Source: a virus. From it: a DNA stretch of 64,000 nt. This document shows positions 5,625-57,197 of the stretch, one piece after another (the first letter of the stretch is position 1; every line of letters begins with the position of its first letter). The position numbers were made by a program, and so were the translations under genes. Below the pieces are notes generated by a model. That model made no database searches. It was not told the DNA's origin and was given only the letters and a program-made list of their open reading frames with translations. The stretch spans positions 1 to 64,000 of IMG/VR virus record IMGVR_UViG_3300033146_000946. The stretch is one strand, 5' to 3'.

Positions 5625-5662
5625 AGAAGAGTGTATCACTAGATATACTCTTCTTTTATTTT
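5625..5662 (+). terminator. rho-independent terminator
   Basis: AGAAGAGTGTATC (5625-5637) pairs with GATATACTCTTCT (5642-5654), with one G-T wobble, around the loop ACTA, followed by TTTATTTTAT. It closes the 5085 gene unit directly before the next promoter-like element. Confidence 0.85.
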
Positions 5663-24582: not shown

Positions 24583-27459
24583 ATGGCTAGAGAATATGCG
24601 ATTCCAAGCTCTTCTACGATCTTACAAGATTACGGATTAACTGTTAAAACTCCACCAACAGCTCGTAATAGAAGAGTCGTGATAATAGGAACAGCCGAAG
24701 ATGGTCCACTATATGAACCAATAGCTATCGATCAACCTCAAGATTCAGAATTAGTCTGGGGTAGACAGCTAATGGGTGATTTAGTACGTGGAATTTTCGA
24801 ATGTTGGAATTCTCAAAATTCCAATCAAAATGTCGTTGGTGTAAGAATTGGTAAAGCTGAAACATCAATTTTAGAAATTCCTGAAATACATTCAGATGGC
24901 GTTGATGAAGAAGATAGTGATGAAAATATCGTATCGTTACGATTGAAAGGTAGAAATCCTGGTCCTATTTATGATCAGATTACAATTCAATATGATTCAA
25001 GTATGAATCATGCTGGTGATATTTCTATCTATAATCCTAAAACTGGAGCGTACTCTTACTTTTCAGTTGATAGAACTAATCCTTATAATACATCTGTTGA
25101 TGTACATAATATTTCTGAATTAGTTACTGCTATTAATAATGATAGAAATTTGGCATATACAGTCGTTGCTGAATATGACGAATTAGTAACTGATTATGAA
25201 TTAGTAATTAGTGGATTAACACCTGGTGTTATTCAATCTGCTGATTCTGTTAGATTAAATCTATCTCAGATTCTAGCTGAATCTGGAGTAATAGCATCAG
25301 GTAATGATGCCTTTCTTGTTACTGATCCTGATCTACCTTATGATATTAATGGAATAGATTATGCTAAAAATTTAACAGTTGCAAATAATCTAATTAATTT
25401 AGAATCGGTAACTGGTATTGGTATTTCTGAATGGACTAAACAAGAATTTAAAGGTATTGTTACTAAACTAGAACATACTCCATTAGATGGTAAAAATAAT
25501 TCTAGATGGGATTCTATTCAAGCATTAAAAGACTATGATGGAGATTCTAAATATATTACAAGTCCTGGTCCTTCTGGACAAGTAATTTCAGAATATTTGT
25601 ATAATGTAGAATTTGCATTAATTAATGAAATTCCTACTGATTTTAAAGGTCTAGATGAACAAAATGTTTTTACATTTGATATTGATATTCCTTTAGATGA
25701 TACTGAAAATCCAGGTATGGTACTTAATGATAGTGTAGCATTTAAATATATATCTATTAATCATCCTGAGTATAATGATTATCAAGGTACTGGTGATTAT
25801 GAAGATGCTAGATGTATTGGTGTTGAAACTAAAAAAGTAGATGGTAAAGATGAAAGACCTTATGGTGCAGTTCGTGTATTTGTTTCTAATAAAATAGATA
25901 ATACTGCTCAATGGACAGAAGTTCCATATCATTCTCAATCTGGTGTATATATTTCTGAATTTATAGAAGATAATAATGAAGGTAATAAACTTCAATTTGC
26001 TATCGGACCTGCTGCGTCTGGTTGTTATGATATTAATAATTCACATATAACATTTGATACTGGTATACCTGATACTGATCCTATTAAATGGTCTAATTTA
26101 ACTCAGTTAATTGATAAAGACGGTTTTATTCAAGATGGTGTATATATTCGAGTAACTGGTAATACTGTTAAAGGCTTTTTAACAGAAGTAGATACTTTAT
26201 CTCAACTTGAAGCATCTATGCAAACTGCTAGAAAACCAACATATTACTTCTTGCGTGGTGATGAACTTGTATTAAATGCTGCACCTAATTTTCCAATGAT
26301 TATTAATTATGGAATAAAAATTAATTATGAAATAGGAACTACTGTTGCTATTACTGATTATTTTAATGGTGAACTTACATTCTTAGATAGAGAAAATCTT
26401 CCAGGTCCTGGAGGTGGTAGAATTGAAGATGATAAAATAACACATATCAGATTAAATTATAAATATATGCCTAATTTTCCAGCAATAACATCTAAAGCTA
26501 AATCTTTACATGGTGGTAAAACTGGAGCTAAACTTTCTGTTAAAGAAAGAGAAGAAGAACTAATTAAAGCATATGATTATCTTCGTAATTTTGAAGCTGA
26601 TATCTGGGTTCCTATGGGTGCTTATATTGATGCTATTAAAGAAGATTATAATGAAAATACTGGTTTATTAGAAAAACAGATGAATTCATTTTCTGCTGGT
26701 ATTGAAGATTTCTTAGTTGAACAATCTATTAATCAATATCAACCTCATGCTATACTTGGTGTTACACAAGTAGAAGGTGAAACATTAGGTGATAAAGATG
26801 AATGGGTTAAAAATTTAACTGAATATGATATTGATGATCCACTTCGTGGTGCTAATTCAATGGCTGCTATACAAAGTAAATATATTTCAGTTGCTGCTTT
26901 CGAACCTATCTTTATGAATACAGGTAGAGGTGCTCCTTATGCTGCTAATGGTCAAGCTGCTTATGCTGGACTTATTGCATCATTACCTTATGACATATCT
27001 CCAACTAATAAACCTATTACTGGTATAACTGCTACTAGATTTAATCTAGCTATTCCTCAATTAGAAGCTCTAAATAATTTTAGATATGTTACTATGAAGA
27101 ATACTAATACTAGAAATCCTGTAATAGTTAATGATATTACTGCAGCTCCTTATGGATCCGATTATGTAAATTGGTCTATATTTAGTATTACTAAAGAAGC
27201 TGCTGATAGAATTAAACGCGTAGCAGATAGTTATATCGGAAGACCAAATAGTATGGAAGTTCGTAATGCATTAGATCAAGATATTTCTAATGTGTTGAAA
27301 AATATGAGTGGTATTCAAGCATTTAATTTCAACTTGTCAAGTACAATTGACCAACAGATTTTAGGTGTTATTGAAATTGATTTAGTTATAGTTCCAGTCT
27401 TCACTATTAAGAAGATTAGAACAACTATTAAACTTAGAAAGAACGTTGCTCTAGGTTAA
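24583..27459 (+). CDS. contractile tail sheath protein
   Basis: Forms the contracting outer tube of the tail. The product has 958 residues, starting at ATG 24583 after AGGAGA. N-terminus REYAIPSSSTILQDYGLTVK with RRVVIIGTAEDGPLYEPIAI is the usual sheath start that places the protein in the tail. The conserved C-terminal sheath domain is readable from about residue 700: INQYQPHAILGVTQVEGET, FMNTGRGAPYAANGQAAYAG, then ITGITATRFNLAIPQLEALN, VIVNDITAAPYGSDYVNWSI and the closing IEIDLVIVPVFTIKKIRTTI. It is much longer than T4 gp18 (659), so the middle probably holds extra surface domains. A hairpin follows the gene, and tube genes come next. Confidence 0.93.
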   Translation: MAREYAIPSSSTILQDYGLTVKTPPTARNRRVVIIGTAEDGPLYEPIAIDQPQDSELVWGRQLMGDLVRGIFECWNSQNSNQNVVGVRIGKAETSILEIPEIHSDGVDEEDSDENIVSLRLKGRNPGPIYDQITIQYDSSMNHAGDISIYNPKTGAYSYFSVDRTNPYNTSVDVHNISELVTAINNDRNLAYTVVAEYDELVTDYELVISGLTPGVIQSADSVRLNLSQILAESGVIASGNDAFLVTDPDLPYDINGIDYAKNLTVANNLINLESVTGIGISEWTKQEFKGIVTKLEHTPLDGKNNSRWDSIQALKDYDGDSKYITSPGPSGQVISEYLYNVEFALINEIPTDFKGLDEQNVFTFDIDIPLDDTENPGMVLNDSVAFKYISINHPEYNDYQGTGDYEDARCIGVETKKVDGKDERPYGAVRVFVSNKIDNTAQWTEVPYHSQSGVYISEFIEDNNEGNKLQFAIGPAASGCYDINNSHITFDTGIPDTDPIKWSNLTQLIDKDGFIQDGVYIRVTGNTVKGFLTEVDTLSQLEASMQTARKPTYYFLRGDELVLNAAPNFPMIINYGIKINYEIGTTVAITDYFNGELTFLDRENLPGPGGGRIEDDKITHIRLNYKYMPNFPAITSKAKSLHGGKTGAKLSVKEREEELIKAYDYLRNFEADIWVPMGAYIDAIKEDYNENTGLLEKQMNSFSAGIEDFLVEQSINQYQPHAILGVTQVEGETLGDKDEWVKNLTEYDIDDPLRGANSMAAIQSKYISVAAFEPIFMNTGRGAPYAANGQAAYAGLIASLPYDISPTNKPITGITATRFNLAIPQLEALNNFRYVTMKNTNTRNPVIVNDITAAPYGSDYVNWSIFSITKEAADRIKRVADSYIGRPNSMEVRNALDQDISNVLKNMSGIQAFNFNLSSTIDQQILGVIEIDLVIVPVFTIKKIRTTIKLRKNVALG

Positions 27460-41500: not shown

Positions 41501-41786
41501 AGGTTGGGCTCCACAATTATTAAGAGCACAAGATGCGATGGATAGAATGCCAGATCCAAATATTAATCAAATTAATTTTAATGAAAATAATGCAGATATG
41601 ATGGATCCAGGTACAGTAAAAGGAGCAATAATGAATATGTTACATTCGATGGGATTAAAAGGTAGAGTTACAGTATTTATAAATAATCATGTAGATGGTG
41701 GATCAAATAAAGCAACTATAACATTACAGCATAATAGAGTGCAAGAAATTCGTGATGCTGTTGATTTTAGAGAGAGGTATATGTAA
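35505..41786 (+). CDS. giant tape-measure-like protein with embedded PD-(D/E)XK nuclease
   Basis: The product has 2093 residues. Position straight after the chaperones, an amphipathic N-terminus (residues 25-60) and Gly/Ala-rich membrane-like segments at about 1098-1130 (GALIGGALRMAGGPGAMIGG) and 1795-1830 suggest a tape-measure or ejected protein. At about 1480-1600 lies a RecB/Cas4-like nuclease signature: H1493/H1495 in YGTHAHEAIQNWL, D1527 in SGHIDGVIRD, E1543-x-K1545 in ALEIKTI and Q1565xxxY1569 in QLNFYLHEM. The order and the 16-residue D to ExK spacing fit the family. The rest has no recognised domain. The enzyme could act on host or phage DNA during entry, or on packaged DNA. The next giant gene overlaps by one base. 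Confidence 0.75.
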   Translation: MSHYDPYQDNNDSYYNPQSNVNNKESVVHSIGSAIGETAKSLVGQLIVHTVVKSVGKLAGRGIANAQRSRATMRLKQKNLSSSQRSMYQRLSKAETFTDVLSARSKTFDRVRTNAWRQKSKNILEKRENVYNRLKTRNPIGAEAYKVKSAFKNSDTFMAVAMHNVGESILEGSIIGYAYDAATGQLGHMGVRDDLSTWNLPGHAVNYAKYMVKNAVNFGVMGNLGNIKRFGQAGAANVGKNFLKHNKGFEDAVLGFASKVSNVRYKGAMKHGSDTDYKAQAFQHEINDSLLKKVKDNVGAALSTYTDTIAPMMHESLHKPFQRKPTKTPQPTATQSAVKFQDKVKHGLDQVKNSFEHKRNERANRLSKDVDKGGFAIADVLSDMGARSNNQSVLTQHGNSKQAIDEMLMNQKSSRGFLAQMFGLQQTSLKDTLTKDKIADIAHGISKFTDTKEEMLIRQLGNVKVGNTFFKKGKFNVDMNYMNPLNVVKRGMANILQSNAKMLYKLPMVGKSLSLGAITMSDTILGTEYNAFSFNNTGTGFGFVVGTKGGPKQIDDLLREPGILKQGSNTSGVNVHMVNDKLYAIDGATITKLDSYNVAIKETSPASKSLSEMKKHDMEEYLYQNAKNTVPTSKSEAIAAYANNIKKQRDGLGFFGKLSAAVSWDKLSSSNAMQGLKEIFNMKIMPNGQVHSVKQQLYDQMVGSFYGKDPIFNKQEMMSVGRTMLESTEHHLANVINRPHVIKQLAERSSGFMNKNNLGWMWDDTEFVQLLREGRAPNGVIDKDFYKTFLSDDESKALYHTVIQNPRRAKKHITRDRVGARPDLDALTQLRTKFAMNGLGKVEGVDRMLSGADFLHRQGLISHSEATAMKLHGKLNTMFAKSKTYFGELDPEIVDLTEMQKLFKGKKDGVIIKQNELLDYVMQDEMRKPSLVYSKARLADTLYRNPDAPMFGLARDTTQAIGISYKSDSDKNMAMGLKVLNVGANRVSHLVSDTFNAVGIGGFEYDNFRYGTGMSGSFKYLANTAGKVAAAAFAYKAIDAAVASAPVFDQTGLQDGITGFLADNVATTHLIASKALNFTGVAGAGRYLEGLMPGFTSSAPGALIGGALRMAGGPGAMIGGAIHGAIWNRMLSAYMPDFTKTYEQLQKEYSGEEEVAIVEGKGWLLGTTPFQGNKIVGYKPNWYVEAKSRWKASDTLYGSEFRKLIHEPLPGIGANIGDIIDPYYMERKHFFDRPYPVTGGFLDEVPVFGPLIDATLGKIFKPKKLMHQKFLNGDSSIEHSEVTAMPVIPMSEQSVHMRSASPMKTTSRHIRSNFMGAWVYPGDHASSAQMIADDYMAGFENMMGLVGFAGGVGRTNLVEHERVVPTLETAGRMASMTRSYNDMALGGIGTLSEAMRRFVGKPDHRKVGVNPIPNMLPNFLPGRFLTGDPYEKIMKGELRLPGTAYERTHDINYAMPGRASMFGGNLKDIVAYFTGHKSPLLKEEHDILEYGTHAHEAIQNWLKAENILISAENLVYDTRNNVSGHIDGVIRDGTGGGGRRALEIKTISAKGLKKLSGPKNQHVGQLNFYLHEMKMKKGTILYVNRDNPAEFKVYEINYNRDRYTKDLQKIHQARKIASGMIAQSKTGISKGFSYSWTDRLNILADVAPASKEFKEAKWIVEQQIKNGMMDERGMNKYRKALKHRQATLRTYELYPTRFRGQILSPDAEYNRQNENYNIKAGAEYSLPERIVGAVWEEFLNTNTFLTNKFFAFKDPLEHYSEYQVYGKEYTPWTDPYGSFVKPRIDRVLGSTDPFKGAIAGSIDGAYLFGGSPMAAVGAFVGAAVGGVNGIMKRQQRWLPGNIKTERQINDYFDTLEYYKNERMATLSYGMEYDRYKNAANATFHSLIQNESTDYTNIYRSAYTSEKPYLSAWLNETNPERQEEILKIVPERLGNVLVSHWQKEGSKVNTEDHIDKMSAGLLQKHNPEYDMRMLDPMLRTEDIKLKAINNAGLNAHDFGLGWAPQLLRAQDAMDRMPDPNINQINFNENNADMMDPGTVKGAIMNMLHSMGLKGRVTVFINNHVDGGSNKATITLQHNRVQEIRDAVDFRERYM

Positions 41787-44700
41787 TGCCAATAACTGAA
41801 ATTTTAGGTGAAGAAATTGAAAATGATAATGATAGAGTAAACTGGTTTGGTAGAGTAATGGTTGGTGGTATGTCTGTTTTAGGACTTGTTGCTATTGCTA
41901 ATAAGATTGGTGGTCCTACAGGTAAAGCTATAAAATTATCAGTTGGTGATCAATTAGAAGAAGAAGTAATAGATGCTGTTAATAAATATGGAAGACAAGC
42001 TGATAAATTAAAATCACCAAGTAGTTTAAAACATAAATTACCAATTAATGGAAAATTAGAAGTAGTTGGAAAATTACCATCAGAACAAGCAATTTCTAAA
42101 TTTGAACGTGTAGTAAATTCTCAAGATAAAATAAACAAAATGATGGAGACACCAACATCATTATATAATAAAATACATGAACTTGAGCGTTCTATTTCTA
42201 CTGTTATTAATGGTGTTGAAAATGGTGATCCTATGATGAAACAGATTAACGCATTACATGGAATAGTTTCAGCTAAAGTTAGGACAAAAGATGCTAAATC
42301 TGATGCTAATAATTATTTATTAATGGCAACCAAAATAAATGCAATGAGAGATTATAGTACTACTGATGTTAAAGGTGAATTAGCACAATATTTAGATGAA
42401 GATATCTGGTATGATAATTTCTTAACTGAAATGAAACCATCTGATATGATTAAATGGAATCAAAATAATGAAACTTTAATAAAAAGTGATACATCATATG
42501 CTAAAAAATATTATAAACAATTACAAAATTTAGAAAAAGAAATTTTAGCTAATAAAATTGCTAGTTCTGCTAATAGTAATAAAGCATTAGAGCTAACACA
42601 TAATAAATTATATGTAAAAGATGCTTTTATGCCTGTTGGTGATTTATTAAATGATGCAGCAGGTTATGTAATAAATGTTACTAATAAATCTATCGAATTA
42701 TTTTCATCTGATTTTAGTAATAATAAAATGAGTGTTGGAGAAATAAAACAAGTAATCGATAAATCTATATCTAAAAACGTTGGATTAAAATCACAATACG
42801 GATCAGAATTAAGTGATATAGCTCATTTATTAGATCAATTTAAAACTATGAGTAATGGTAAAATTACTAATGTTAAAATGACTTATAAAACCACAGAACA
42901 AAGAGGTGTTGAAAAAGCATATGTTGTAATTAATATAGATAGAAAATATGGAAATAATAATACTAGATCATTTTCTATGAATATACCATTAGTTGATAAA
43001 TTTAATATTGTACCAGATATAACTAATACATCACATTTTGGATATGGTGTTGCAGGTATAATAGAATCATTACCAGGAACAAATAAACCAGCTACAGCAA
43101 TAGATATATCTACTTATTATATGAGAACTGTTAAAGATATGTTAACTCAATCTATAATGAGTGAGGTATTATTTACTGATGAAGAATCATTTAATGATGT
43201 ACAAAAAAAATTAAGAAGACCATTATTAGCAATTCAAGATCAATTAAGTGCATTAAATGGTGAAGCTAGAGATATTTTTGCTACAGGAATGTATATACCA
43301 AAAACGCATTTAGATTTAATTGCTGATAAAACAGGTAGTAAAAAAAGACAATTAGCTGATGGTGCTAAAACAATAATAAATATGTTTAATGATAGTAAAA
43401 GAAATACTAATAATGATGTATCTATTGTTTTAGACTTAGAAACAATTCAATTATTAGGAAATGGTTCAGGAAGATATATGTCTGTAAGAAATACTACTTC
43501 AATTTGGTCTGTAGGTTTTTCTATTTTTAAAGGTAATGAATTAATAGATGGTGATCAGATTTCTTCTATGCATGCTTTAAAAGAGCATGATTTATTACGA
43601 GCATATGAAGTTGATAAAGTTGATAAAGGATATATAGCTAGGATGATTGATGAAAATCCTAATATCCGTAAATTTGCTAGATTTGCACAGAAAACAGTTG
43701 GCGGTTCAACTGGTGATGATTCAGTAAGTTTAGCTATAGCATTAAAAAAACATATAGAAATGGTACTAGATGAATCAAACGGATCATTATCTAAAGTAAC
43801 AACAATGCCAGGTATGGGAAATTTTTCAAGTTCAGTTGAATTTGCTCAATCTTTTGTTAAAATGTTGAAAGCTAAAATACGAGATTTACAAGATACTTTA
43901 CAACCAGGAGCAAAGATCACACTTGAAACTGCAAATGGTACTGATTTCGATATAAGATTATTAGAAACATTAACTGGTGATATGGGTTCTATAAGAGATA
44001 TGGTTGAATTTAAAGATATAACTAATGTAAGTAGAACTATGAAATTTGGTAAAAAAGGTATGTTAGGTGATCAGTTAATGCATATCGTTAACCAGTTAGC
44101 ATGGGATCAAGGATATGATAAAGAACATTTTAATGTAGAAGCTAATCCATTAGAAGCATTAAAACAATTACAAAAGAATGGATTAATGAAAACTAATAAA
44201 AATGGTGGTGATATATTAAAATTTGTTGGCGGTAAAATAAAAGGTAATATGGGTTTACATAATTCAGCATTATTAGATACTGTAATGACAAAAGCTGCAG
44301 TTATATTAGCTGAGAATGTAATTGCTAAAGATACTAGTCATGTAGATAAAGCATATGAAATTTTAAATTTATTAGAAAAATATCAAAGAAAAGATTATGA
44401 AGCAACTATTGCTGATTATATGGAATCATCTTTAGGAGTAATAAATGGTAAACAAGTAACTAAATCTGGTATTAGTATGCAACATCGTGTTGATAATTAT
44501 TATACACATTTTAACGTAGCTGATGTTATGCCATTATTAGCAAATAATCCAGTATCTAAACAAGCAAATCAATATTTAAGACATGGTTGGTTTCAAAAAA
44601 ATGTTAAAGCTGCATATTGGCGATATGGAAAAATGATTACATCTCCAATAGAAGAAGTAGCTACAGATTTAGCATATAGAACTACAGGATTTGATAAAAA

Positions 44701-47700
44701 TAGATTTGCTAATAAAGTTATATTAAATACAGCATATACAATTGGTGGATATGGTATGCAATCTGGATATAGTGCTATACCTAAATTTATAGATGATGAA
44801 TTTGATCAAATGTTATATAATCAAAAACGAGTTCAATTTAATTTTGCTGATACTGATTTTCCAGATGCATCTATGTCTAATACTATTAGAGAAGTATATG
44901 ATAAAGCTATGGTTAGAGCTCGTAAAATGATGAGTGATAAAGGATTAGGTCCAGTTAAAAGTAAGCATAAAATATCCAAAAGTGTATTAGAAGAAGCATT
45001 TAGAATAGAATTAGGAAATATACAAAATAAAGAATCTTTGATATTAGATCCAGAAAACCCAATACATCAAAATATTATGTTTGGTGATGGTAAATTAAAT
45101 ATTAAACAAAATACTCCAGGAAAATTAGTAGGTATTGAATTAGGTGGTGATATTAATAATGATAAACCAGCTTCAATGTTATTATTATTTGATTATAAAT
45201 CTTCTTTAAATTTACAGATAGATCATTTACCAGATAATAAATCAGTTGTTACTAAATTACAACATGTAGATCAAGAAGTACTTAGAACTATGGGTAGAAA
45301 ATATACACATGGATTAATTGAATCACAAGTAGATATGCGTACAATAGAAAAAGGATATACTGGAGAATTACAAAGAAAAGCATTATTAAAAATAATAGGA
45401 CATGTTAATAAAATAGGTCATATTGGGTCATCAGATGCATCTAAGAGAGTATGGACTGATTCAGAAAAATTTGCATCTGATAAAATAATGAAAAAAGTAA
45501 TATCATTGTTTAAAGAAAAAGCTGCAACAGATGGTATGCATGTTGGATCTATTGATGAAGAAAATGGTTTTAAATCATTTATATTTGGTGCATTAAAACC
45601 AGGAACAGTAGATGTTAAAGAACAAATGAATATGTTATCTACTATTAAAATGTCGGATATTATGGATATATTTGGTGAAGCAGGTGGTGATCTCATACAT
45701 GATTATAAAAGTTTAAAAGAATATTATGGTTTATTTAGTAATGATGGTATAATTGAAACTGCTCATAATATCGATTCAAAATTAGTAGCTAAAGGCTTTT
45801 CAGAAAAAGGTACAAAAGAAGGAGATTTATTAGAACAAATGTTAAATATGGATGATACTATAAAAGAAAATAAAGCATTAATAAATCCATTTCAAGCAGC
45901 TGCTAATAAATATAATAGAAAGCATGGTGATAGTGCATTACAAAAAAAATTACAAGGATACATTGATGCTAATGATTTACAATCTGCTGATAATTTAATT
46001 AAGAAATTAAAAATTGGAAAATTATTTCAAGCAGTAGGTGATATGAGTGCAGTTAATAGAAATATTATGGCTGGTAAAACTGGAGATGAAAGGTTTGATA
46101 AATTAATGGGTATTGTTGTTCCTACTATTCATCACTTTAGTGATTCTCAATCTATGAAACAAAAACAAGTTAATAAAACTATTAAATTTCGAGCTAATTA
46201 TTTTGATACAATTTTTCATGAAAATTATTTACCAGAAAGAGTAAAACAAGTATTAGCATCAAGTCAAGGTTGGAAAGCTGACAAAGCAGGTTTAGATTTA
46301 GTTAAAACATCTCGTGCAGTTATAGACATGTTTAAAAATAATAATCTTAGTAAATTAATGACTAATTATAGTTTAAATCAACAACAAATGTTAGATATCA
46401 TTGGTAATCCACTAACTAATAAACAAATAGATAGAGCATTAGAAAGATTAAGTTTAGCTGATGGTAAAAGTTCAAAGAGAAAAGCTGCTATAATTAGTGA
46501 AGTAATAGATAGTATTAAAAAAACAGGAACAACTATATCATTAGAAGAAGAAGAAGAAATAAGATCTAGAAGTATTAATTATTTTAAAGATAAATTGATT
46601 GCAACTAAAAACAGACCTTCTTCTTTATCAGCTACCGAAGCATTACATGTAATATCTTTAAGTGAAGATCAAAATGCTAAAGTAGTTGGTTTAAAATTTT
46701 ATGAATATAAAGAACTTGATAAAGATACAGGAAAATTAGTATCTAAAGTTATATCAAAAGAAACTAGAGCTAAATTAATTAAAAAAGGTATTAGTAAAGA
46801 TCAATTCAAATCATGGGGTGGACAAATTAGATTTGATTTAGAAGATATGATATCTAGATTGAATGAAAAAGAATCTGATCCATTTAATCTACGTCAATTT
46901 ATTGATCATTTTTCACATCTTAAAAATACACCTGGTCGTGCTGATAATAGAATCTTTAATGTCAAAGAAGTTAATGGTAGAAAAATAATTGAAATGAACG
47001 CATTAGTTATGCCAATGTTTAGTGATATTAGAAATGTATTCAATCAAATTGGTGATGTTGAAGGTTATGGTGTTGCTACAAAAGAATTTAAATTAATGCA
47101 AGAAGTCGCTAATGGTTTAAAAGATTATGCTAATTCCTTTATTGATGGTAAAGGTAATAATTCTATGAATAATAGAACTGGTGACGACTTAGCTTTTAAC
47201 TATTTCCAAATGTTAGGTGGAATTATGAATTTTGGAAAAGATTCACAATTATTTGATGCTGTTAAAAAATTCCATTTAGTAGGTAGTAGACATACATATG
47301 GTGTAAGTGATCAACATGTATTATTAGCACAATATACCTTAAAAGGAATAGATGGTAAAAGTACTGGTTCAAAACAAAGAATGTTAGATTTTTTCAAAAA
47401 AAATAATATGGATGCTTCACAACAAAGTGCATTTATGGATCAGATAAGAAGTGTAGCTTTATCTGATGGACATACAGCATTAGTAAATGCTGAAGATTTT
47501 TTTGGTGATAATATAAAAGTAAATACAGGTAATGGTAAAAGTATGACTTTTGGTCAAATGTTATCTGATGCAAAAGCTAATGATAAACATTTATATAATG
47601 AATTATTAAAAATTCAAAATGGTAGAGCAACTATGCCAGGTTTCACTGGTAGATATCCTATCCCATCAGCTGGAGAACTTGGATTATCTATGGTTAATAT

Positions 47701-49291
47701 TTTAGGTCTTAGTAGAGAAGTGATGGATTTTTTAGGTATGAGTACTGATATGACATATTTTAATTCTGTTATAGCTGAAGCTCGTAAAGCTGATACTGAT
47801 GGTGATGAAACTGAGTTAATGCAATTAGGATATAGAACAATCGAACATTTAAATGAAATGAGAGCAGCAACAAAAGAATCACATGCTAGAACTGTAGGTA
47901 GTCATGGACTTCAATATCTTATTAATGAATATAATAGAAGTGGTGCATTAATAGGTAAGGAAATGAAAGGTGGTGTAGAATATTATAAAGTTGGTAAATT
48001 AGCACCTAATGGTTCAATGATTGAAGAATTAGTTACAAAAGATGAATATTTTAATAAATTTGATTCAGGTATATCTAAAAATTTTAAAAAAATTCTTAGT
48101 CAAGACTGGATAGAAGGAACTAATATACATAATATAGCAAATGGTGTAGAACGTCATTTAGCAACAGGTGAAATTGGTACAGCTGCTCAATCATTAATTG
48201 GTTTAATTTCTAATACGATGAGTGAAAGAGTAAAAGATTTACATCGTTTAAATAAAATACTTCCTGATAATGTTCCAACTGATATAAACTTTTTGGATTC
48301 AATTCAATCAATAAAATTTGGTATGGCTAATATGCATCAAACTGCAATTGCTATGGGTAAACATAATACGTTTGAAAAAGCAATAAATTTAGCACATGCT
48401 ATTGGTTTCTGGGAATCAAAAGTTAATAATAAACAAGCTTCACGAGAACAAGTTCAAGCAGCTGAAAAAGCATGGATGCATAATTTTTATGATGATTGGG
48501 ATACAAAAAAATTAAATCCATATTGGGAAAAAAATGACGAAACAAGAGCATTTGTTCAAAAACAACAAGACTTATTTAATACTTTTAAAACTGCTATGCC
48601 ATTTATAGATCAAGTTTATAAAAAAGATCCACAAATAGGAAGATACTTAAAAAATGAAAGCGATTTATCTAGTGGTAAAATGGGAACAGATATTACTGCT
48701 GCATTATGGAATGAATCTATGGATCATGGTATTTATGATGATGCTATATCTCATATTAATTCATCAACTCGAGAAGCAACAGCAGAATTAATTCAACATG
48801 TAATAGATAAACAAAGTGGTGATTTTAAATATGATAATGGACCTACAAAACGAAGTAAAGCTTTTAATCATTTTTATACTAATAATAATATACATGTTAA
48901 AAATGCAATGATGCATGGTGGTAAATTTGCAGCTTTTGGTATGTTAGCAGTTGCAGCATTAAATATGTTTAAACCTATGGCTGGTACTGGAATTGATGCA
49001 CCAGGTGTACATAATAATTTTACTGCTAGTGAATTACAATTAGATAGAAGAATAGCTATAGATCAAGTTGATGCATCTTTTAGTAAAGAAGCATTTGCTT
49101 ATATGAATGATCAAGATTCAACTGCTAGAGAAAAAAAATCATTATATGGTGCTACACAATTAGCAATATATGATAATTTAATTAGACCAGAACCTACTCA
49201 TAAACAATTTAGAAGTAATCTTAATATACAACAGATAAATAGAATGACTTATATTGGTCCATTTGGTAATTCTAATTTTGATAGTAGGTAA
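41786..49291 (+). CDS. giant virion protein with DnaQ-like exonuclease and RNA-polymerase-like DxDGD signatures
   Basis: The product has 2501 residues. Region 545-835 matches DnaQ-like DEDDh 3'-5' exonucleases: ExoI D550-L-E552 in SIVLDLETIQLL with SIWSVGFSIFKG after it, ExoII D722 in TANGTDFDIRLLETL, ExoIII H825/D831 in LHNSALLDTV. The H-D spacing is 6 rather than 5 and the gaps between motifs are larger than usual. At about 1955-2010, GRYPIPSAGELG is followed by ADTDGDETEL with D2003, D2005 and D2007, the RxP ... DxDGD layout of the catalytic double-psi barrel in cellular-type and crAss-like virion RNA polymerases. A Gly/Ala-rich hydrophobic segment lies near residues 2380-2400. It is probably packaged and injected. 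Both enzyme calls rest on short motifs. Confidence 0.65.
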   Translation: MPITEILGEEIENDNDRVNWFGRVMVGGMSVLGLVAIANKIGGPTGKAIKLSVGDQLEEEVIDAVNKYGRQADKLKSPSSLKHKLPINGKLEVVGKLPSEQAISKFERVVNSQDKINKMMETPTSLYNKIHELERSISTVINGVENGDPMMKQINALHGIVSAKVRTKDAKSDANNYLLMATKINAMRDYSTTDVKGELAQYLDEDIWYDNFLTEMKPSDMIKWNQNNETLIKSDTSYAKKYYKQLQNLEKEILANKIASSANSNKALELTHNKLYVKDAFMPVGDLLNDAAGYVINVTNKSIELFSSDFSNNKMSVGEIKQVIDKSISKNVGLKSQYGSELSDIAHLLDQFKTMSNGKITNVKMTYKTTEQRGVEKAYVVINIDRKYGNNNTRSFSMNIPLVDKFNIVPDITNTSHFGYGVAGIIESLPGTNKPATAIDISTYYMRTVKDMLTQSIMSEVLFTDEESFNDVQKKLRRPLLAIQDQLSALNGEARDIFATGMYIPKTHLDLIADKTGSKKRQLADGAKTIINMFNDSKRNTNNDVSIVLDLETIQLLGNGSGRYMSVRNTTSIWSVGFSIFKGNELIDGDQISSMHALKEHDLLRAYEVDKVDKGYIARMIDENPNIRKFARFAQKTVGGSTGDDSVSLAIALKKHIEMVLDESNGSLSKVTTMPGMGNFSSSVEFAQSFVKMLKAKIRDLQDTLQPGAKITLETANGTDFDIRLLETLTGDMGSIRDMVEFKDITNVSRTMKFGKKGMLGDQLMHIVNQLAWDQGYDKEHFNVEANPLEALKQLQKNGLMKTNKNGGDILKFVGGKIKGNMGLHNSALLDTVMTKAAVILAENVIAKDTSHVDKAYEILNLLEKYQRKDYEATIADYMESSLGVINGKQVTKSGISMQHRVDNYYTHFNVADVMPLLANNPVSKQANQYLRHGWFQKNVKAAYWRYGKMITSPIEEVATDLAYRTTGFDKNRFANKVILNTAYTIGGYGMQSGYSAIPKFIDDEFDQMLYNQKRVQFNFADTDFPDASMSNTIREVYDKAMVRARKMMSDKGLGPVKSKHKISKSVLEEAFRIELGNIQNKESLILDPENPIHQNIMFGDGKLNIKQNTPGKLVGIELGGDINNDKPASMLLLFDYKSSLNLQIDHLPDNKSVVTKLQHVDQEVLRTMGRKYTHGLIESQVDMRTIEKGYTGELQRKALLKIIGHVNKIGHIGSSDASKRVWTDSEKFASDKIMKKVISLFKEKAATDGMHVGSIDEENGFKSFIFGALKPGTVDVKEQMNMLSTIKMSDIMDIFGEAGGDLIHDYKSLKEYYGLFSNDGIIETAHNIDSKLVAKGFSEKGTKEGDLLEQMLNMDDTIKENKALINPFQAAANKYNRKHGDSALQKKLQGYIDANDLQSADNLIKKLKIGKLFQAVGDMSAVNRNIMAGKTGDERFDKLMGIVVPTIHHFSDSQSMKQKQVNKTIKFRANYFDTIFHENYLPERVKQVLASSQGWKADKAGLDLVKTSRAVIDMFKNNNLSKLMTNYSLNQQQMLDIIGNPLTNKQIDRALERLSLADGKSSKRKAAIISEVIDSIKKTGTTISLEEEEEIRSRSINYFKDKLIATKNRPSSLSATEALHVISLSEDQNAKVVGLKFYEYKELDKDTGKLVSKVISKETRAKLIKKGISKDQFKSWGGQIRFDLEDMISRLNEKESDPFNLRQFIDHFSHLKNTPGRADNRIFNVKEVNGRKIIEMNALVMPMFSDIRNVFNQIGDVEGYGVATKEFKLMQEVANGLKDYANSFIDGKGNNSMNNRTGDDLAFNYFQMLGGIMNFGKDSQLFDAVKKFHLVGSRHTYGVSDQHVLLAQYTLKGIDGKSTGSKQRMLDFFKKNNMDASQQSAFMDQIRSVALSDGHTALVNAEDFFGDNIKVNTGNGKSMTFGQMLSDAKANDKHLYNELLKIQNGRATMPGFTGRYPIPSAGELGLSMVNILGLSREVMDFLGMSTDMTYFNSVIAEARKADTDGDETELMQLGYRTIEHLNEMRAATKESHARTVGSHGLQYLINEYNRSGALIGKEMKGGVEYYKVGKLAPNGSMIEELVTKDEYFNKFDSGISKNFKKILSQDWIEGTNIHNIANGVERHLATGEIGTAAQSLIGLISNTMSERVKDLHRLNKILPDNVPTDINFLDSIQSIKFGMANMHQTAIAMGKHNTFEKAINLAHAIGFWESKVNNKQASREQVQAAEKAWMHNFYDDWDTKKLNPYWEKNDETRAFVQKQQDLFNTFKTAMPFIDQVYKKDPQIGRYLKNESDLSSGKMGTDITAALWNESMDHGIYDDAISHINSSTREATAELIQHVIDKQSGDFKYDNGPTKRSKAFNHFYTNNNIHVKNAMMHGGKFAAFGMLAVAALNMFKPMAGTGIDAPGVHNNFTASELQLDRRIAIDQVDASFSKEAFAYMNDQDSTAREKKSLYGATQLAIYDNLIRPEPTHKQFRSNLNIQQINRMTYIGPFGNSNFDSR

Positions 49292-49517: not shown

Positions 49518-52500
49518 ATGGCATATATAAACGCTAAAAATGTAGAACGAGTATATCATCCAAGTCAATTAACAACATTATTATATAGTATGATTGATAC
49601 CCTTAAAACAGATATTAAATCTAGTTTTAAGATTCCAGGTACCGTATCTACTCGTCATAAATATGATACCGTTTTATCATATGGTAAATATACATCATCC
49701 TTAGAAAAAGTAAAATATAAAGTATCATTTTTACCAGGACATTTAAATTTAAATACATCTAAAGTATCATTTTTACCAGGACATTTAAATTTAAATACAT
49801 CTAAAGCACACACATACGCTTTAGATGTTATCAGTAAATTATATACTGACACATTTAAATTAAAAGTAAGTGATTTCGTATATCAAAATAATCCAGATGT
49901 TGGAACTTTATTAGAATCAAAAGGACGTGGTTTACAACCAGGAGATATTTTATTAGCTAGAGCTTATAGTTCTACTAATAATTCAGAATATATAGATTAT
50001 TTAACAATAGTAATAGAAGCAAATGATGGAAATTTAGTTACTTTTCCAGAATTATATAAAAATAATGCTGATTTATTTAATATTAAATTTATTAGACAAT
50101 ATACTATTACAAAACCAAGTAAAGAATTAGCTACATTAGCTGGAAATACAGGTCATTTATTTTATCAATATAAAAATACATCTAAATTATCCGCTGAAAT
50201 TATTAAATCTACTAGATTAAATGTTGATGGTTATTTACAAATTGGTGATTTAAAATTCTTAGTAGCACCACAACAATTATCTTTTAGTACACAAAATGGT
50301 TATCAATATTTTCCTACTATAAGAACCAATGGTAATCCGAATATTCCAACTGCTCAAGAAGCAAAACAAGTTAATATAACTTTAATATTTCCAAATGTTG
50401 ATTCAATTAATAATCAATTATTACCATTATTTGCTATGTTTAAACGAACACCATTTGTTAATGTTTATAATAAAGATATAAGTATGTTTTTTAGTGAATT
50501 AAAAGATGAAGAGGATTTTGTATCTTTTGCATTAGAAGATTTATATATACAAACAATTAAAGGATTTCCAAATACTCTACAAGCTAATATTACAATATTA
50601 CCATTTCAAAAAGAATCTTTTGGTTCTGCTTTTAAAGCTTTAAAAACATTTGATGATGTAAAATATAAACAAGTTGTTGAAGATTTTAGAACAAGTAGAA
50701 TAGATAATATAGTTGAAAATATTCAAAATAGATTAAATGATAATAAAGAAATTTATGCAACTAATATTTTTAGAAAAGTAAAAGGACCATATTCAAAATA
50801 TGGTTTTAGATTAACTAGTGATTTCACATTAAGTGAACCATTTAGAGCATATTATCAAGGCCTATTAGCATATCGAACTGTAGTAGAAGATGAATTAGGA
50901 AATATTGTTAAGAAATCTAATAGAGAACCTATATATATTGAAGCATTTAGACCAAAAAAAGCAGCCAATCTAATACATAAATATGTAGCTGAACATAATC
51001 AAAATAGACCTATTGTAATGAATTATAGTTATATTGATGAATCAGTTCGAGAATTTAGAAAAAAGATGAATGATCAACAACAAGAAGCTAGACGTAAAGT
51101 AGCTAAACAAACTAGAAGTGCTAGAGAAATGTTTGAAGCAATTGGTGACACATCATTTAATGAATCTTTAAATACAGTAATTCATACTAGACAAGATTTT
51201 TTTGATTCTATATTAGCTACTTATCAATTTTCATCTTTTGATAATTTCTTTTCAAGAGTATTAGTACAATATGGAGTTGAAGTTCATTCTGATAATGATA
51301 TTGAAAAGATATCTGGTTATCTGGATTTATTATTTAAATATTTAAAATTTGGAGTAAAAGTTGATAATGTATCTTGGAATGATTTAGAAGGTGGATTTAA
51401 TTTAGTATTTGGAAATGCTTTTAAATTAGTTAAAAGTAAATATTCATTTAAAGGTGAAGCTAGGGATCAAATAGATTTATTAACAGGATTTACTTTAATT
51501 GATACTAAAACTAATAAAGAAGTATCTACTAAAGAATTTACAAATAATTTATTAACAAAAATTCAAAAATTATATGTTAATATTAAAGATGAAAAAACTA
51601 AATCTGTTATTGCTGCATTTTGGGATAGTATATTTAATACTATTTCTAGTGGTGGAGATGTCGTAGATTTAAATACCTTTATGTTTAAAAATTTAGATGG
51701 AATATTAAGATCAAGTATTACAATAGATAATGTTAATGATATAATAGAAGGTTGGTCTATTTCATATTCTAATAAACTTATACCAATGCAATTATTAGGA
51801 TTTAAATATCCATTTTATCAACATATTGGATCAAATAATATTAATGTTCAATTATCTATTACTTCTTTACAAAATGGACGTAAAGTTGGATTAAAAGATG
51901 AATTTTCAATATTAAATGATAGATTACAACGAACAGCTAAAATAATATTAATGAATATGCCAGAATTATTAAAATTGTATAATTATACAGTATCATTAGA
52001 CACAGTACCACTTGGTAATATTTTTTCTATTTTTGGTTTAAAACAATTAGTATTTAATAATTCTAATGTTAGTAATATTCCAGGTAAACCAAACGCTTGG
52101 GCTATTACTGTTAATTTTACTCAAGATTTATTAACAATACGAGAATATCAATCAATTGATCAAGTGCCTAATACTTTTGGATTTGCTCCTGAAATTGCAA
52201 ATAAATTAATACGATCTAGAATTATAACTGAAGATAATGATCCTAGTGGTTATGCAAAAGGTGATGTTGTAGTTTATGATTTACAATTAAAAAAGACCCT
52301 GAAAGATAGTGATATAGATTCTGTAGATCCTTCTAAATTTGATCAATCGATTTTATCAGTTCTAATGCCAAAAGAAGATTATACAAAATCAGCTGTATCA
52401 GCTGCTGTAGAAGCACAAGATAAAATTGATAAAAAACGATTAGGACCTATTCAACATGGAGATGAAACAACATATATATCAGAAATAAATAATTTATTTA

Positions 52501-55500
52501 TATACTACTTTGCCTTATTAAAACAAAAAACATTAGCTAAAAAAAATGATATAGATTTATTTAAAGATGATGTAATAAAAGTAACACAAAGTGATGGTAC
52601 TGTTGTAGAACAAAAATTTAATTTTAAAAGTAATGATCAAATTTTAGAAGCATTTGAATTAGTTCCTAATAAAATTGAATCAAAAAAATTAAAAAAAGTT
52701 TTTGATAATAGTGATTTTTTTAGAGATTCATATAAAGGTCTATTAGTTGAAATAGATACATTATATGAGACCAGTGCTGGTATAATGTTAAAAGCATATG
52801 AAGATATTGAAGTAGATCCTCATATTTTTATTGCTGAAGCAATGATGTCTGTTGGTTTTTTTGGGGTAGTAGGTGCTGCATTATTAGGATCATTAGCAGT
52901 TATGACTGGTGGTGTAGCTTTATTAGCTGGTGGTATGGTTATAGGAATGGTTGGTATTACATTAGATCAAAATAAAAAAGAATCAATAAAAGCTACTATT
53001 AGAAAACACCATTCTTTATTAAAAAATATTTTAGATAATATAACATCAAAATATATTAGAGATATATCTAGAATAATTTTACGAGATCCACCAATAATTA
53101 AAGCTTTATATAGTGAAGAATTATATACTGATGTTATGACTATAATCAGAACTGCAGGTATAAATTGTTATAAAGATTTTGATATTAGATTAGATTCATT
53201 AAATGTTTTAAATGGTGAAACATTACAATTTAGTCCAGAATTTTATCTATTTAATAAATATGATCTTAATACTAAAAAAGATGAATTTATTAAAGATCAA
53301 TTGAAAAATAAAATATCTGCAGCTGAAATACAAAGTAATATGATTTTGAAAGAAACAACCGAAGTATTAGATATGTTAAGAAATATTAATGATGAAGTAT
53401 TTAAAGATGATGCTACATTTTTTACTCAAATTAAAACTGATTTAAATTATATAAAAAATAATTCTACATCAAGTGATCCTAATAGTTATGAAATGGATTA
53501 TGATGAATTATTTAAAAAAATAAAAAATGTTTATGGTAAAATTATAGAAGAATATTCAGGTGTATCTAAATATAAAATGATTAATGGTAAAAAAGTTGTA
53601 ACGTCAACTACTAATGGTATTGATATAGATTTATTAAAATTTAATTTGTTAAATACCGCTCGAATGAAACGAGCAATTGAATTAAAATTAATACAAAATA
53701 CTATTAATGATTCATTAAATGCAGATAATCCAGATGATAAGACAACAGATAAATCTAATAAGAAAAATACTTTAGACGCTTTAACTGAAATGGGTATAGC
53801 ATTAGAATCTATGGATAAATATAAAAATTATATTAAAAAATATTTTGAACAATATGTATCTACTGTTGAAATACAATGGAATCCAGATTTATATAAAGGT
53901 GAACTACAAAGTGAATCTTTTAAAACTGCAAAAGAATTAAAAAAAGAAAAAGAAAAAAGAATAAAAGAAGATAAAGAAAAATTATATAATCCAGATGCTA
54001 AACATGGCTCTATTACTAATTTTGAAATTAGTATTTATACTAGATTATATCAATTATATCTTTTAGATTCAGCAATTAAAGATGCAGTTGCTAATGAAAA
54101 AATACCATCTGATAAATATGATTTGTCAGATATTCCAGAATTACAATTACTCAAATGGTATGGTTTTAGATCAGCAGAACAATCAGTTAAAGATATAGAA
54201 TTCCTAGAAAAACTATATCATAGTGATCTTTCACAACAAGCAAAAGGTATGAGAAAATTATTTCCTACTCAAAAAATTTATTTAGTTGAAGAAGATAGAC
54301 ATACATTTAAAAATTTAGATGATTATTATTCTTATGATGCTATTCAATCGATTGATATAGTTTCTAATAAATATTCTGCTGGTAAAACTGCTGTATTGAG
54401 ATTAGGAAATATATATAATAATATAACTGATAAAATAAGTTTGATGACAGAGCGATTAACAATAGAAGAACGTAGTCAATTAAATACAGATAATGTGTTT
54501 ATGGGAACGTTAGATGTTAAACCTGGTACTAAAATTATTATTAAACAAGGTTACGATGCTAATGATAAATTTTTACCTGTTGTATTTATTGGTAAAATAG
54601 TAGATATGAGACCAGGTCCTGTAACAGAAATTATAGCACAAAGTTATGGTACACAATTAAATCATTATATTGAAAAATTAAATTTTGGATTTAAATCTTC
54701 AGCAAATGAACATGGGGATGTAGCTATAACTTTATTAGATCAAATGTTTGGATCTGATGGTCTAGGTAAGATAGATCCTATGAATATAAGAAGAAATTAT
54801 TTTACAGGAAAAAATTTATCAAAAATGAGAGAAAATTCATTTTCTAAGTTTTTAATATCTAATATTTTATCAAGAGTAAATATAGGATTATTTGCAAATG
54901 ATAATCCTCGCGATGATAATATCTTTTTACCAATGAGAATATTAGATTCTATTATGGATCATGTAACATTTGACTGGAGAATATATCAACAAACTATATG
55001 GCAAGCATTACAAGAATTAGCTCTATATCATAAAAATACTTTTCCAATGGTAAAATTATATAATTATGATGGTTTATCTAATTTAGATGAAATACGTGAA
55101 ACTGTTATTATAGGTAATAAAGCTGGATATTATAAATATACTGATGCATTTGGTTTGAGTTCTATAAATTATGCTGCTATTAAAAATGCTCTTGAAGAAT
55201 GGAATGATATTAAAGATGATGTTGTAGATGTATTAAAAACTATTACAAATTTTAGAGCAGTTAATGATACATTAGTAAAATTTTATGCTCATATAGCATT
55301 TCCAATGACTAATTATAAAGGTTCAAAAGTTAAATTTAAAACATTAGTTGATTCTAATTATATTAAAACATTTGATGTACCTGGTGATAATAAAAATGAT
55401 CCACAACATGTTGGAATAGAACATACAACTAAATCTAAAAAATTATCAAAAATATTAAATAATAAATATTTAATATTAATGTTAGTTAAAAAATATTTTG

Positions 55501-57197
55501 TTAAAAGTTTAAATACTTCAGCACAAGGATCATTTCAAAAATTAATGGCTGATTTATTTAATGAAAAAACTAATGGTTTAATAGATAGCAATATTCTTAA
55601 AGGTTTAAAATTTTTAATGCAAGTATATATGATAGAAAAATCTTATTCTAATGCTAATATTATTGGTGTATATACTAGAACTATACGTGGTAAATACAAT
55701 CTTGAATCATATAAAGTTTATGATAAACCATTTTTATTATTTTTACATGCTTTATCTTTATTAGTATCTGAAGGTAATAAGGTTCAAAAAGATGATCCAA
55801 AACGATTTGAATTTTTATCTGAAGAATTAAAAATAGAAGATTATATGGATTTAAGAGAATTAATATTAGATAATACTGACGAAAGTTTAACAACTAATTT
55901 ACAATATAAACCTATTCAAACACATCATTTTATTACTGATAATAATGATATATTATCTAATAATATAACTATCAATCAGAATTTTAATAATGCTGTTAAA
56001 TTATATTATACTCGAGAACCTGTTTATTCATTAGATAATATTAGTAATGAAGATGATATTATTCCAATGGTAGTTAAAGCATTTGGTGATACTAAAGATG
56101 GTGATACTAGAGTACTTGAATCATTTCAAAAAAATATTGATCCAAATTATTATGAAATTTCAAATGATTTATTAGATATATTTGGAAATTGGAATGGTGT
56201 TACTAAAATTAATACAGACGATAATTCTTTAACTGCATTTAATACTTCTAATTACGATTTTAATAATCCAAAATGGAGTAAATTACCAGCATTTTATAAA
56301 GTAGCAATAGGTTTATTACAACGTGAAATAGAACAAATGTATCGTGGAACATTACAAATAGTAGGTTATCCTTATATTGAACCTTTTGATATTATACATT
56401 TAGAAGATAATATGAATAATATGATAGGTACTATTGAAGTAGAAGAAGTTATTCACACATTTAATCCACAACAAGGTTTTATAACTACTATTACTCCTAA
56501 TTTAATAACATATGATAGAGATCCTATTCGAATGGCTGAATTAAATATGATGAAAGATGTATTAAGTATGGGAGATGATTTTAGATCTTACGCTCAAAAA
56601 CAATCTGTTTTTAATTTAGTAAAAGATGTTGTAGCTACAGGATTTTTTGCGGCTCAAACTTCAGCAGGTATAGCAACTGCTGAAACTGGAATAGGATTAG
56701 CATGGGCAGGTACATTTGGTTTACTAACTCTTAGTAGTGCAAAAGCAACATTTACCGATATAAAAAATTTAGTAGTTGGTAATAGAAATAAATATACATC
56801 ATTTTTATATGATCATTTTGCTAATCTTTTTGGAAGAGATTGTATCAATTTTACAGCATTAACCTATCATGGTGTACCATTTATGGGTGGCTTTGGTAAT
56901 ATAGATTATACAAATATAAATACTATTATTAACCATCAATCGGTAGAAGGTAATTTTACTAGAAGAATGGCAAATGCAACAGATACGCAATATCTTTGGA
57001 TGGCTTCTGGTGGAGATTTAAATAATATAAGTAAATTTACAGCGTTTGTAATGGGTGAAGGTGCTAATGGTTCTAATCATTGGTATGTTAGAGGTGCAGC
57101 TTGGTGGATGAAAGGTGTATTTATACTTAATGATTGGAGTACTGATGGTAAAATGAAGTGGTCACTTGGTGATTGGGTAGAACATCAAGCTAAATAA
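49518..57197 (+). CDS. giant baseplate hub protein
   Basis: The product has 2559 residues. Residues about 230-370 (GYLQIGDLKFLVAPQQLSFS ... VNITLIFPNVDSI) look like a baseplate domain with strand-rich layout. A hydrophobic, probably membrane-active segment lies at about 1105-1150 (FFGVVGAALLGSLAVMTGG). From about 1587 a hub (gp27 / late-control-D-like) region is recognisable: IDIVSNKYSAGKTAVLRLGN, VKPGTKIIIKQGYDANDKFL, VVFIGKIVDMRPGPVTEIIA and QSYGTQLNHYIEKL; it closes at about 2276 with GYPYIEPFDIIHLEDNMNNM. The C-terminal 130 residues are aromatic and Asn/Trp-rich. The protein therefore fuses a hub with large extra domains. An exact 42-base duplication lies near the 5' end. Spike, wedge and J genes follow. 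Confidence 0.78.
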   Translation: MAYINAKNVERVYHPSQLTTLLYSMIDTLKTDIKSSFKIPGTVSTRHKYDTVLSYGKYTSSLEKVKYKVSFLPGHLNLNTSKVSFLPGHLNLNTSKAHTYALDVISKLYTDTFKLKVSDFVYQNNPDVGTLLESKGRGLQPGDILLARAYSSTNNSEYIDYLTIVIEANDGNLVTFPELYKNNADLFNIKFIRQYTITKPSKELATLAGNTGHLFYQYKNTSKLSAEIIKSTRLNVDGYLQIGDLKFLVAPQQLSFSTQNGYQYFPTIRTNGNPNIPTAQEAKQVNITLIFPNVDSINNQLLPLFAMFKRTPFVNVYNKDISMFFSELKDEEDFVSFALEDLYIQTIKGFPNTLQANITILPFQKESFGSAFKALKTFDDVKYKQVVEDFRTSRIDNIVENIQNRLNDNKEIYATNIFRKVKGPYSKYGFRLTSDFTLSEPFRAYYQGLLAYRTVVEDELGNIVKKSNREPIYIEAFRPKKAANLIHKYVAEHNQNRPIVMNYSYIDESVREFRKKMNDQQQEARRKVAKQTRSAREMFEAIGDTSFNESLNTVIHTRQDFFDSILATYQFSSFDNFFSRVLVQYGVEVHSDNDIEKISGYLDLLFKYLKFGVKVDNVSWNDLEGGFNLVFGNAFKLVKSKYSFKGEARDQIDLLTGFTLIDTKTNKEVSTKEFTNNLLTKIQKLYVNIKDEKTKSVIAAFWDSIFNTISSGGDVVDLNTFMFKNLDGILRSSITIDNVNDIIEGWSISYSNKLIPMQLLGFKYPFYQHIGSNNINVQLSITSLQNGRKVGLKDEFSILNDRLQRTAKIILMNMPELLKLYNYTVSLDTVPLGNIFSIFGLKQLVFNNSNVSNIPGKPNAWAITVNFTQDLLTIREYQSIDQVPNTFGFAPEIANKLIRSRIITEDNDPSGYAKGDVVVYDLQLKKTLKDSDIDSVDPSKFDQSILSVLMPKEDYTKSAVSAAVEAQDKIDKKRLGPIQHGDETTYISEINNLFIYYFALLKQKTLAKKNDIDLFKDDVIKVTQSDGTVVEQKFNFKSNDQILEAFELVPNKIESKKLKKVFDNSDFFRDSYKGLLVEIDTLYETSAGIMLKAYEDIEVDPHIFIAEAMMSVGFFGVVGAALLGSLAVMTGGVALLAGGMVIGMVGITLDQNKKESIKATIRKHHSLLKNILDNITSKYIRDISRIILRDPPIIKALYSEELYTDVMTIIRTAGINCYKDFDIRLDSLNVLNGETLQFSPEFYLFNKYDLNTKKDEFIKDQLKNKISAAEIQSNMILKETTEVLDMLRNINDEVFKDDATFFTQIKTDLNYIKNNSTSSDPNSYEMDYDELFKKIKNVYGKIIEEYSGVSKYKMINGKKVVTSTTNGIDIDLLKFNLLNTARMKRAIELKLIQNTINDSLNADNPDDKTTDKSNKKNTLDALTEMGIALESMDKYKNYIKKYFEQYVSTVEIQWNPDLYKGELQSESFKTAKELKKEKEKRIKEDKEKLYNPDAKHGSITNFEISIYTRLYQLYLLDSAIKDAVANEKIPSDKYDLSDIPELQLLKWYGFRSAEQSVKDIEFLEKLYHSDLSQQAKGMRKLFPTQKIYLVEEDRHTFKNLDDYYSYDAIQSIDIVSNKYSAGKTAVLRLGNIYNNITDKISLMTERLTIEERSQLNTDNVFMGTLDVKPGTKIIIKQGYDANDKFLPVVFIGKIVDMRPGPVTEIIAQSYGTQLNHYIEKLNFGFKSSANEHGDVAITLLDQMFGSDGLGKIDPMNIRRNYFTGKNLSKMRENSFSKFLISNILSRVNIGLFANDNPRDDNIFLPMRILDSIMDHVTFDWRIYQQTIWQALQELALYHKNTFPMVKLYNYDGLSNLDEIRETVIIGNKAGYYKYTDAFGLSSINYAAIKNALEEWNDIKDDVVDVLKTITNFRAVNDTLVKFYAHIAFPMTNYKGSKVKFKTLVDSNYIKTFDVPGDNKNDPQHVGIEHTTKSKKLSKILNNKYLILMLVKKYFVKSLNTSAQGSFQKLMADLFNEKTNGLIDSNILKGLKFLMQVYMIEKSYSNANIIGVYTRTIRGKYNLESYKVYDKPFLLFLHALSLLVSEGNKVQKDDPKRFEFLSEELKIEDYMDLRELILDNTDESLTTNLQYKPIQTHHFITDNNDILSNNITINQNFNNAVKLYYTREPVYSLDNISNEDDIIPMVVKAFGDTKDGDTRVLESFQKNIDPNYYEISNDLLDIFGNWNGVTKINTDDNSLTAFNTSNYDFNNPKWSKLPAFYKVAIGLLQREIEQMYRGTLQIVGYPYIEPFDIIHLEDNMNNMIGTIEVEEVIHTFNPQQGFITTITPNLITYDRDPIRMAELNMMKDVLSMGDDFRSYAQKQSVFNLVKDVVATGFFAAQTSAGIATAETGIGLAWAGTFGLLTLSSAKATFTDIKNLVVGNRNKYTSFLYDHFANLFGRDCINFTALTYHGVPFMGGFGNIDYTNINTIINHQSVEGNFTRRMANATDTQYLWMASGGDLNNISKFTAFVMGEGANGSNHWYVRGAAWWMKGVFILNDWSTDGKMKWSLGDWVEHQAK
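49719..49802 (+). repeat. perfect 42-base tandem duplication
   Basis: The unit AAAGTATCATTTTTACCAGG... (42 bases) is present twice without mismatch (49719-49760 and 49761-49802), adding the in-frame 14-residue unit KVSFLPGHLNLNTS twice. No synonymous differences have built up, so the event is recent, or the copy is an assembly artefact. Confidence 0.95.

Follow-up and report, generated by a model that had tools for sequence, protein, structure and literature searches.

The window is a 64,000-nucleotide stretch of DNA from the start of a virus record of 147,061 bases. Family searches of the window identified terminase, portal, capsid, sheath and baseplate genes, and we therefore take the phage to be contractile-tailed. 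Its portal is similar to those of Moorella phage MTATph1, Bacillus phage KLEB27-3 and Acinetobacter phage ME3, and the annotation of ME3 links the structural genes of that phage to Bacillus phage 0305phi8-36. Judged by its sequence, the window virus is a contractile-tailed member of the 0305phi8-36 lineage.

An initial annotation had pointed to an R-x-P ... DxDGD signature in a 2501-residue tail-module protein, and such a protein, here P0001, is indeed encoded on the plus strand (Table 1). The stretch GRYPIPSAGELG begins at residue 1955 (window position 47648) and DTDGD at residue 2003 (47792), so that the motif lies where it had been placed, with an Arg-to-Asp spacing of 47 residues (R1956 to D2003) in place of the 48 first counted. 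Among the four giant tail proteins DxDGD occurs only once, in P0001. The ATG of the P0001 gene and the stop codon of the giant gene before it, that of P0003, overlap, and the P0001 gene sits between P0003, which is related to upstream genes elsewhere in the lineage, and the hub gene. P0003 contains a Cas4/RecB-like PD-(D/E)XK nuclease (window 39951-40352; PHROG 1706, E 1.5e-17). Since alignments across the lineage skip residues about 1465-1633, the nuclease appears to have been inserted in this group.

The P0001 gene had also been described as lying where a tape measure protein is expected. In 0305phi8-36 the protein called tape measure is gp146, named mainly by correlation with tail length (PMC2147016). 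Because the annotation of ME3 makes gp035 and gp037 homologues of two 0305phi8-36 proteins that flank one intervening protein, we infer that P0001 occupies the position of gp146. The description calls for one refinement: in most relatives a P0003-like giant precedes the gene.

Table 1. Features of the tail module and of P0001 (window coordinates)
Feature	Position	Strand	Basis or remark
Contractile tail sheath (context)	24583..27459	+	PHROG 16991 tail sheath, E 1.9e-45
P0003, preceding giant tail protein, 2093 aa	35505..41786	+	Relatives precede the polymerase-like gene in the lineage
P0001, tail-module protein, 2501 aa, proposed DEDDh exonuclease-two-barrel RNA polymerase	41786..49291	+	
Putative DEDDh 3'-5' exonuclease domain (D550-x-E552; N717GTDFD722; H825...D831)	43424..44278	+	Motifs conserved with P0006
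Putative catalytic (beta'-like) double-psi barrel, residues about 1890-2030	47453..47875	+	Family matches of homologues; boundaries inferred
R-x-P, R1956-Y1957-P1958	47651..47659	+	R and P invariant in alignments A6, A8 and A9
Metal-binding signature, K2001-A-D2003-T-D2005-G-D2007	47786..47806	+	K, A, D, D, G, D invariant in A6
Downstream motif III, I2138-G-L-I-S-N2143	48197..48214	+	G2139 and N2143 invariant in A6
Downstream motif IV, I2188-A-M-G-K-H2193	48347..48364	+	Q2185, I2188 and K2192 invariant in A6
P0002, giant protein encoded next, at the position of the baseplate hub gene	49518..57197	+	Order as in ME3 and KLEB27-3

Conservation of the Signature in Relatives Found without It

Searches of Pfam, PHROG, phage records and viral contigs with P0001 were unproductive, with no RNA polymerase family match or other relevant hit for P0001 itself in the first three, and relatives were reached instead via the portal protein. 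In seven other members of the lineage we examined the gene just upstream of the baseplate-hub gene, without using the motif. R-x-P together with D-x-D-x-D is kept in six of the seven, Moorella MTATph1 being the exception. P0006 (G004), which is 30% identical to P0001 over the full length, reads RFP...KADTDGD and keeps the R, the P and the three Asp residues. KLEB27-3 gp034, annotated "structural protein," reads RYP...KADYDGD, and the counterpart on a contig of Oceanobacillus profundus reads RYP...KADSDGD. Sequence comparison relates the last two to one another (E 1e-20), and no similarity was detectable between gp034 and P0001; blastp between P0001 and the KLEB/Oceanobacillus groups gave at best E 0.17-0.20, and the tie between them is one of position, architecture and motifs. 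In the ME3-type group (ME3 gp036 and the counterparts in G010 and G011) the signature takes the form REP[AS]QG...D[HGF]DQD, that is, D-x-D-Q-D. A scan of the window and 16 loci for R.P.{28,58}D.D.D returned P0001, the counterparts in KLEB27-3, ME3, G010 and G011, and one more match. A candidate relative, L049, was rejected as spurious.

At the MTATph1 locus, a pattern scan found no polymerase signature in the counterpart. The gene at the P0001 position is shorter there (L010:30512-36025) and is directly followed by a transposase gene. A stretch of MTATph1 CDS0027 (1309 aa) resembles the exonuclease part of gp034 (E 7e-8).

We regard the conservation in these counterparts, which include proteins with no significant overall similarity to P0001, as the decisive check on the motif. 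Loss of the three Asp residues among homologues had been named beforehand as the outcome that would refute the polymerase proposal; they are kept across the lineage, and the proposal withstood this comparison.

Homologue Profiles and Family Matches

Alignment-based scans added L063-L069 and L076 to the set (L070 is the Oceanobacillus contig again). Because KAD[YS]DGD was among the search patterns, the motif is present in these sequences partly by construction and is not independent evidence; their worth lies in the profiles built from them. In the seven-sequence alignment A6, the R, the P and KADxDGD make up 8 of the 16 invariant columns, and five further invariant columns fall in the two downstream motifs, III and IV. 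The DxDGD motif lies at 79-81% of protein length in the nine DxDGD homologues, and the offset from R-x-P to the triad is 38-47 residues in such homologues. In P0006 the downstream motifs read IGLVTN and IKMGKH, and in other homologues IG..[SD]N and IS[SA]K[HK], the first of which was missed by a simple pattern in KLEB27-3. When the 300 residues past the triad were shuffled, the pair recurred by chance in 0.46% of cases, a figure that applies to a pattern chosen after the fact.

The reading of the motif as that of an RNA polymerase gained support from these homologues, which match RNA polymerase families over the motif stretch. Residues 1931-2029 of L064 match PHROG 2987, "RNA polymerase beta subunit" (E 1.9e-6), a family matched by two of the seven A6 members (best E 8.6e-7), and L064 and L063 match Pfam PF00623 (RNA_pol_Rpb1_2) with E-values of 0.006 and 0.009, below the curated cut-off. 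The top chains found with the A6 profile in the PDB were those of African swine fever virus RPB1, a non-significant match (E 0.45) in which the alignment falls exactly on R-x-P...DxDGD (ADFDGD in the viral subunit). The ME3-type profile had no match in the PDB or PHROGs. HHalign comparisons of shallow-alignment profiles with Cellulophaga phage phi14:2 gp66, Thermus phage P23-45 gp96 and a non-virion polymerase were uninformative, with no significant match; in one such run the best local alignment fell on the motif.

The N-terminal half of the proposal, a putative DEDDh exonuclease, is likewise carried by homologues. D550LE and N717GTDFD are present in P0001, and the H825-D831 segment exceeds the usual HxxxxD by one residue; the Oceanobacillus protein has HSATHD as its third exonuclease motif. 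The region of P0001 itself had no family hit. For L068, a homologue, the score with Pfam RNase_T is 26.9 bits, which exceeds the cut-off of 24 bits, and there are matches to PHROG exonuclease families as well.

Structure Models

An AlphaFold model of P0001 residues 1310-2501, built from seven sequences, was uninterpretable (pLDDT 34.5). A weak model of L068 (six sequences, pLDDT 52.7) surrounds R-x-P and the triad with strands, a helix and further strands, the order expected of a catalytic barrel when set against the strand order of the known one. Foldseek returned only noise from the PDB for this model, with no polymerase match. Against BFVD the best match was an 802-residue piece of an ME3 protein (E 2e-4, probability 0.99), which from its length and phage would be the C-terminal half of the 1603-aa gp036, and the third was LEF-9, a baculovirus polymerase subunit (E 7e-3, probability 0.33). 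Neither the alignments nor the models allowed us to place a "first" barrel, the beta-like one that carries two basic catalytic residues.

Comparison with Known Phage Polymerases

Thermus phage P23-45 gp96 is a virion RNA polymerase fused to a tape measure, identified as a two-barrel enzyme by structure and activity, in a phage that additionally has a separate non-virion polymerase (PMC10770324). By analogy it offers a precedent for a tail-delivered polymerase: like P0001, gp96 is a giant tail protein in which R-x-P (within FRNP) is followed by DFDGD. However, P23-45 is a non-contractile siphovirus, and its polymerase is N-terminal in a tape measure of 5002 aa, with DFDGD at residue 779, whereas the motif of P0001 lies at about 80% of the length; for gp96 no exonuclease is noted, and shallow-alignment profiles gave no significant sequence match to the P0001 group. 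In the crAss-like phage phi14:2, gp66 is a single-chain two-barrel polymerase within a large virion protein. It has RIP with DFDID 39 residues on, and its downstream GVGITAN and VDNAK resemble the motifs of P0001. In contrast, phi14:2 is a podovirus of Bacteroidota with a different genome neighbourhood, and gp66 is without a significant sequence match in shallow-alignment profiles.

A further point of comparison comes from within the lineage itself. 0305phi8-36 gp99 is a separate phage polymerase of the RdRP/YonO-like kind (PMC2147016, PMC7824862). The separate polymerase of the Oceanobacillus phage, taken as being of the gp99 type, carries RNP, DNDGD, IGLATN and IDAAKHG one after the other, the last two in the same order as in P0001. 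The gp99 type shares the lineage but, unlike P0001, is encoded by a separate gene outside the tail module. In the records searched, a separate gene of this type was found by similarity in G016, G017 and G018 only, with none in G000, a record that may be incomplete. Separate polymerase-like genes with DNDGD or DFDGD were also seen outside the tail module at L058:13942-17490 (-), in G016 and G017, and at L041:7895-11503; those of L058, G016 and G017 are homologues, and the L041 gene is without a similarity match. Proteomics of BpSp (PMC4870245) was set aside as evidence: the RNA polymerase beta subunit annotated there, at 58.7 kDa, is far smaller than P0001.

Discussion

We propose, with good though not full confidence, that P0001 is a virion RNA polymerase associated with the tail, that it belongs to the two-barrel superfamily and that it has an N-terminal DEDDh exonuclease. 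Residues around 1890-2200 would form the catalytic part of a single-chain enzyme, folded as a double-psi barrel and presumably paired with a second barrel elsewhere in the chain, in which the catalytic Mg2+ ions would be bound by D2003, D2005 and D2007, and R-x-P would be found on the barrel strand before these, as it is in beta'/Rpb1. Encoded between a P0003-like giant and the hub, the protein is probably assembled in the tail, from where it would enter the cell along with the phage DNA and begin transcription of the phage's first genes, either ahead of the host polymerase or in its place.

The motif in isolation is suggestive and not proof, because R-x-P plus DxDGD arises by chance in 0.22% of 20,000 shuffles of P0001 and in 0.7% of trials when all plus-strand ORFs of the window are shuffled. 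These frequencies are what could be said for a motif that arose by chance in a rapidly evolving tape measure protein, a reading to which we give almost no credence, given that the same signature stands in positional counterparts found without the motif and that homologues match RNA polymerase families. It is also very unlikely that the acidic motif forms an EF-hand or thrombospondin type 3 loop for binding calcium, or belongs to a D-x-D-x enzyme such as a HAD phosphatase, despite the superficial similarity of D-x-D-G-D to these. Positions 6, 8 and 12 of an EF-hand loop have to be Gly, hydrophobic and Glu, respectively, where P0001 has E, E and L and its homologues fail too, and a HAD enzyme needs T or V after DxDG and a hydrophobic strand before it, whereas an Asp is invariant after DxDG here. 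Both readings were rejected on these motif grounds; neither explains R-x-P, and P0001 has no Pfam hit of such a kind. A sub-threshold WEF-hand hit in L064 (E 0.07) is located after the motif.

An account closer to our own is that the domain derives from a two-barrel RNA polymerase but now has a structural or other role, as a tape measure or in DNA binding, and makes no RNA. It would fit a protein at the position of gp146, whose name comes mainly from the tail-length correlation, that is itself without a family-level match, and it would fit Moorella, which appears to lack the domain. However, the R, the P and the three Asp residues persist at 30% identity and even between groups whose similarity is undetectable. 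Such retention is hard to account for if the domain is not catalytic, and we consider a purely non-catalytic domain unlikely.

Tail-associated two-barrel polymerases were known before from the siphovirus P23-45, and related virion enzymes from crAss-like podoviruses. For the 0305phi8-36 lineage we found no description of a tail polymerase in the main texts of the literature searched. That the signature is common to most of the related phages suggests that phages of this old lineage package an RNA polymerase of their own and bring it into the host. We lean slightly toward the broader view that a single-chain exonuclease-RNA polymerase is packaged in the tail throughout the 0305phi8-36 lineage, whose hosts span several groups of bacteria, that gp146 is such a virion polymerase, and that some members run a two-polymerase transcription programme in which the other enzyme is a separate, non-virion one. 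If P0001 is what we propose, it would represent a deeply divergent, exonuclease-fused polymerase family in contractile-tailed phages that widens the range of the superfamily, and it would hint at how phages of this lineage begin transcription; the cultured phages ME3 and KLEB27-3 would become direct test systems.

Other Features of the Window

An TATACTATACTATA-like repeated element occurs at window positions 5662, 20345, 24399, 34388, 34933 and 49304, mostly in intergenic DNA and often about 40-50 bases ahead of genes of the structural region. The search for phage-specific promoters yielded no link between this element and the polymerase-like protein; it is possibly a phage-specific promoter. 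By eye, the C-terminal end of P0004 (window 29307-34382) resembles an NlpC/P60-type peptidase, with DCSGFAVYVNNQL...GHVVVYMG. Residues about 69-97 of P0002 (gene 49518-57197) form a perfect tandem repeat in which a unit of about 15 residues, KVSFLPGHLNLNTSK, occurs twice.
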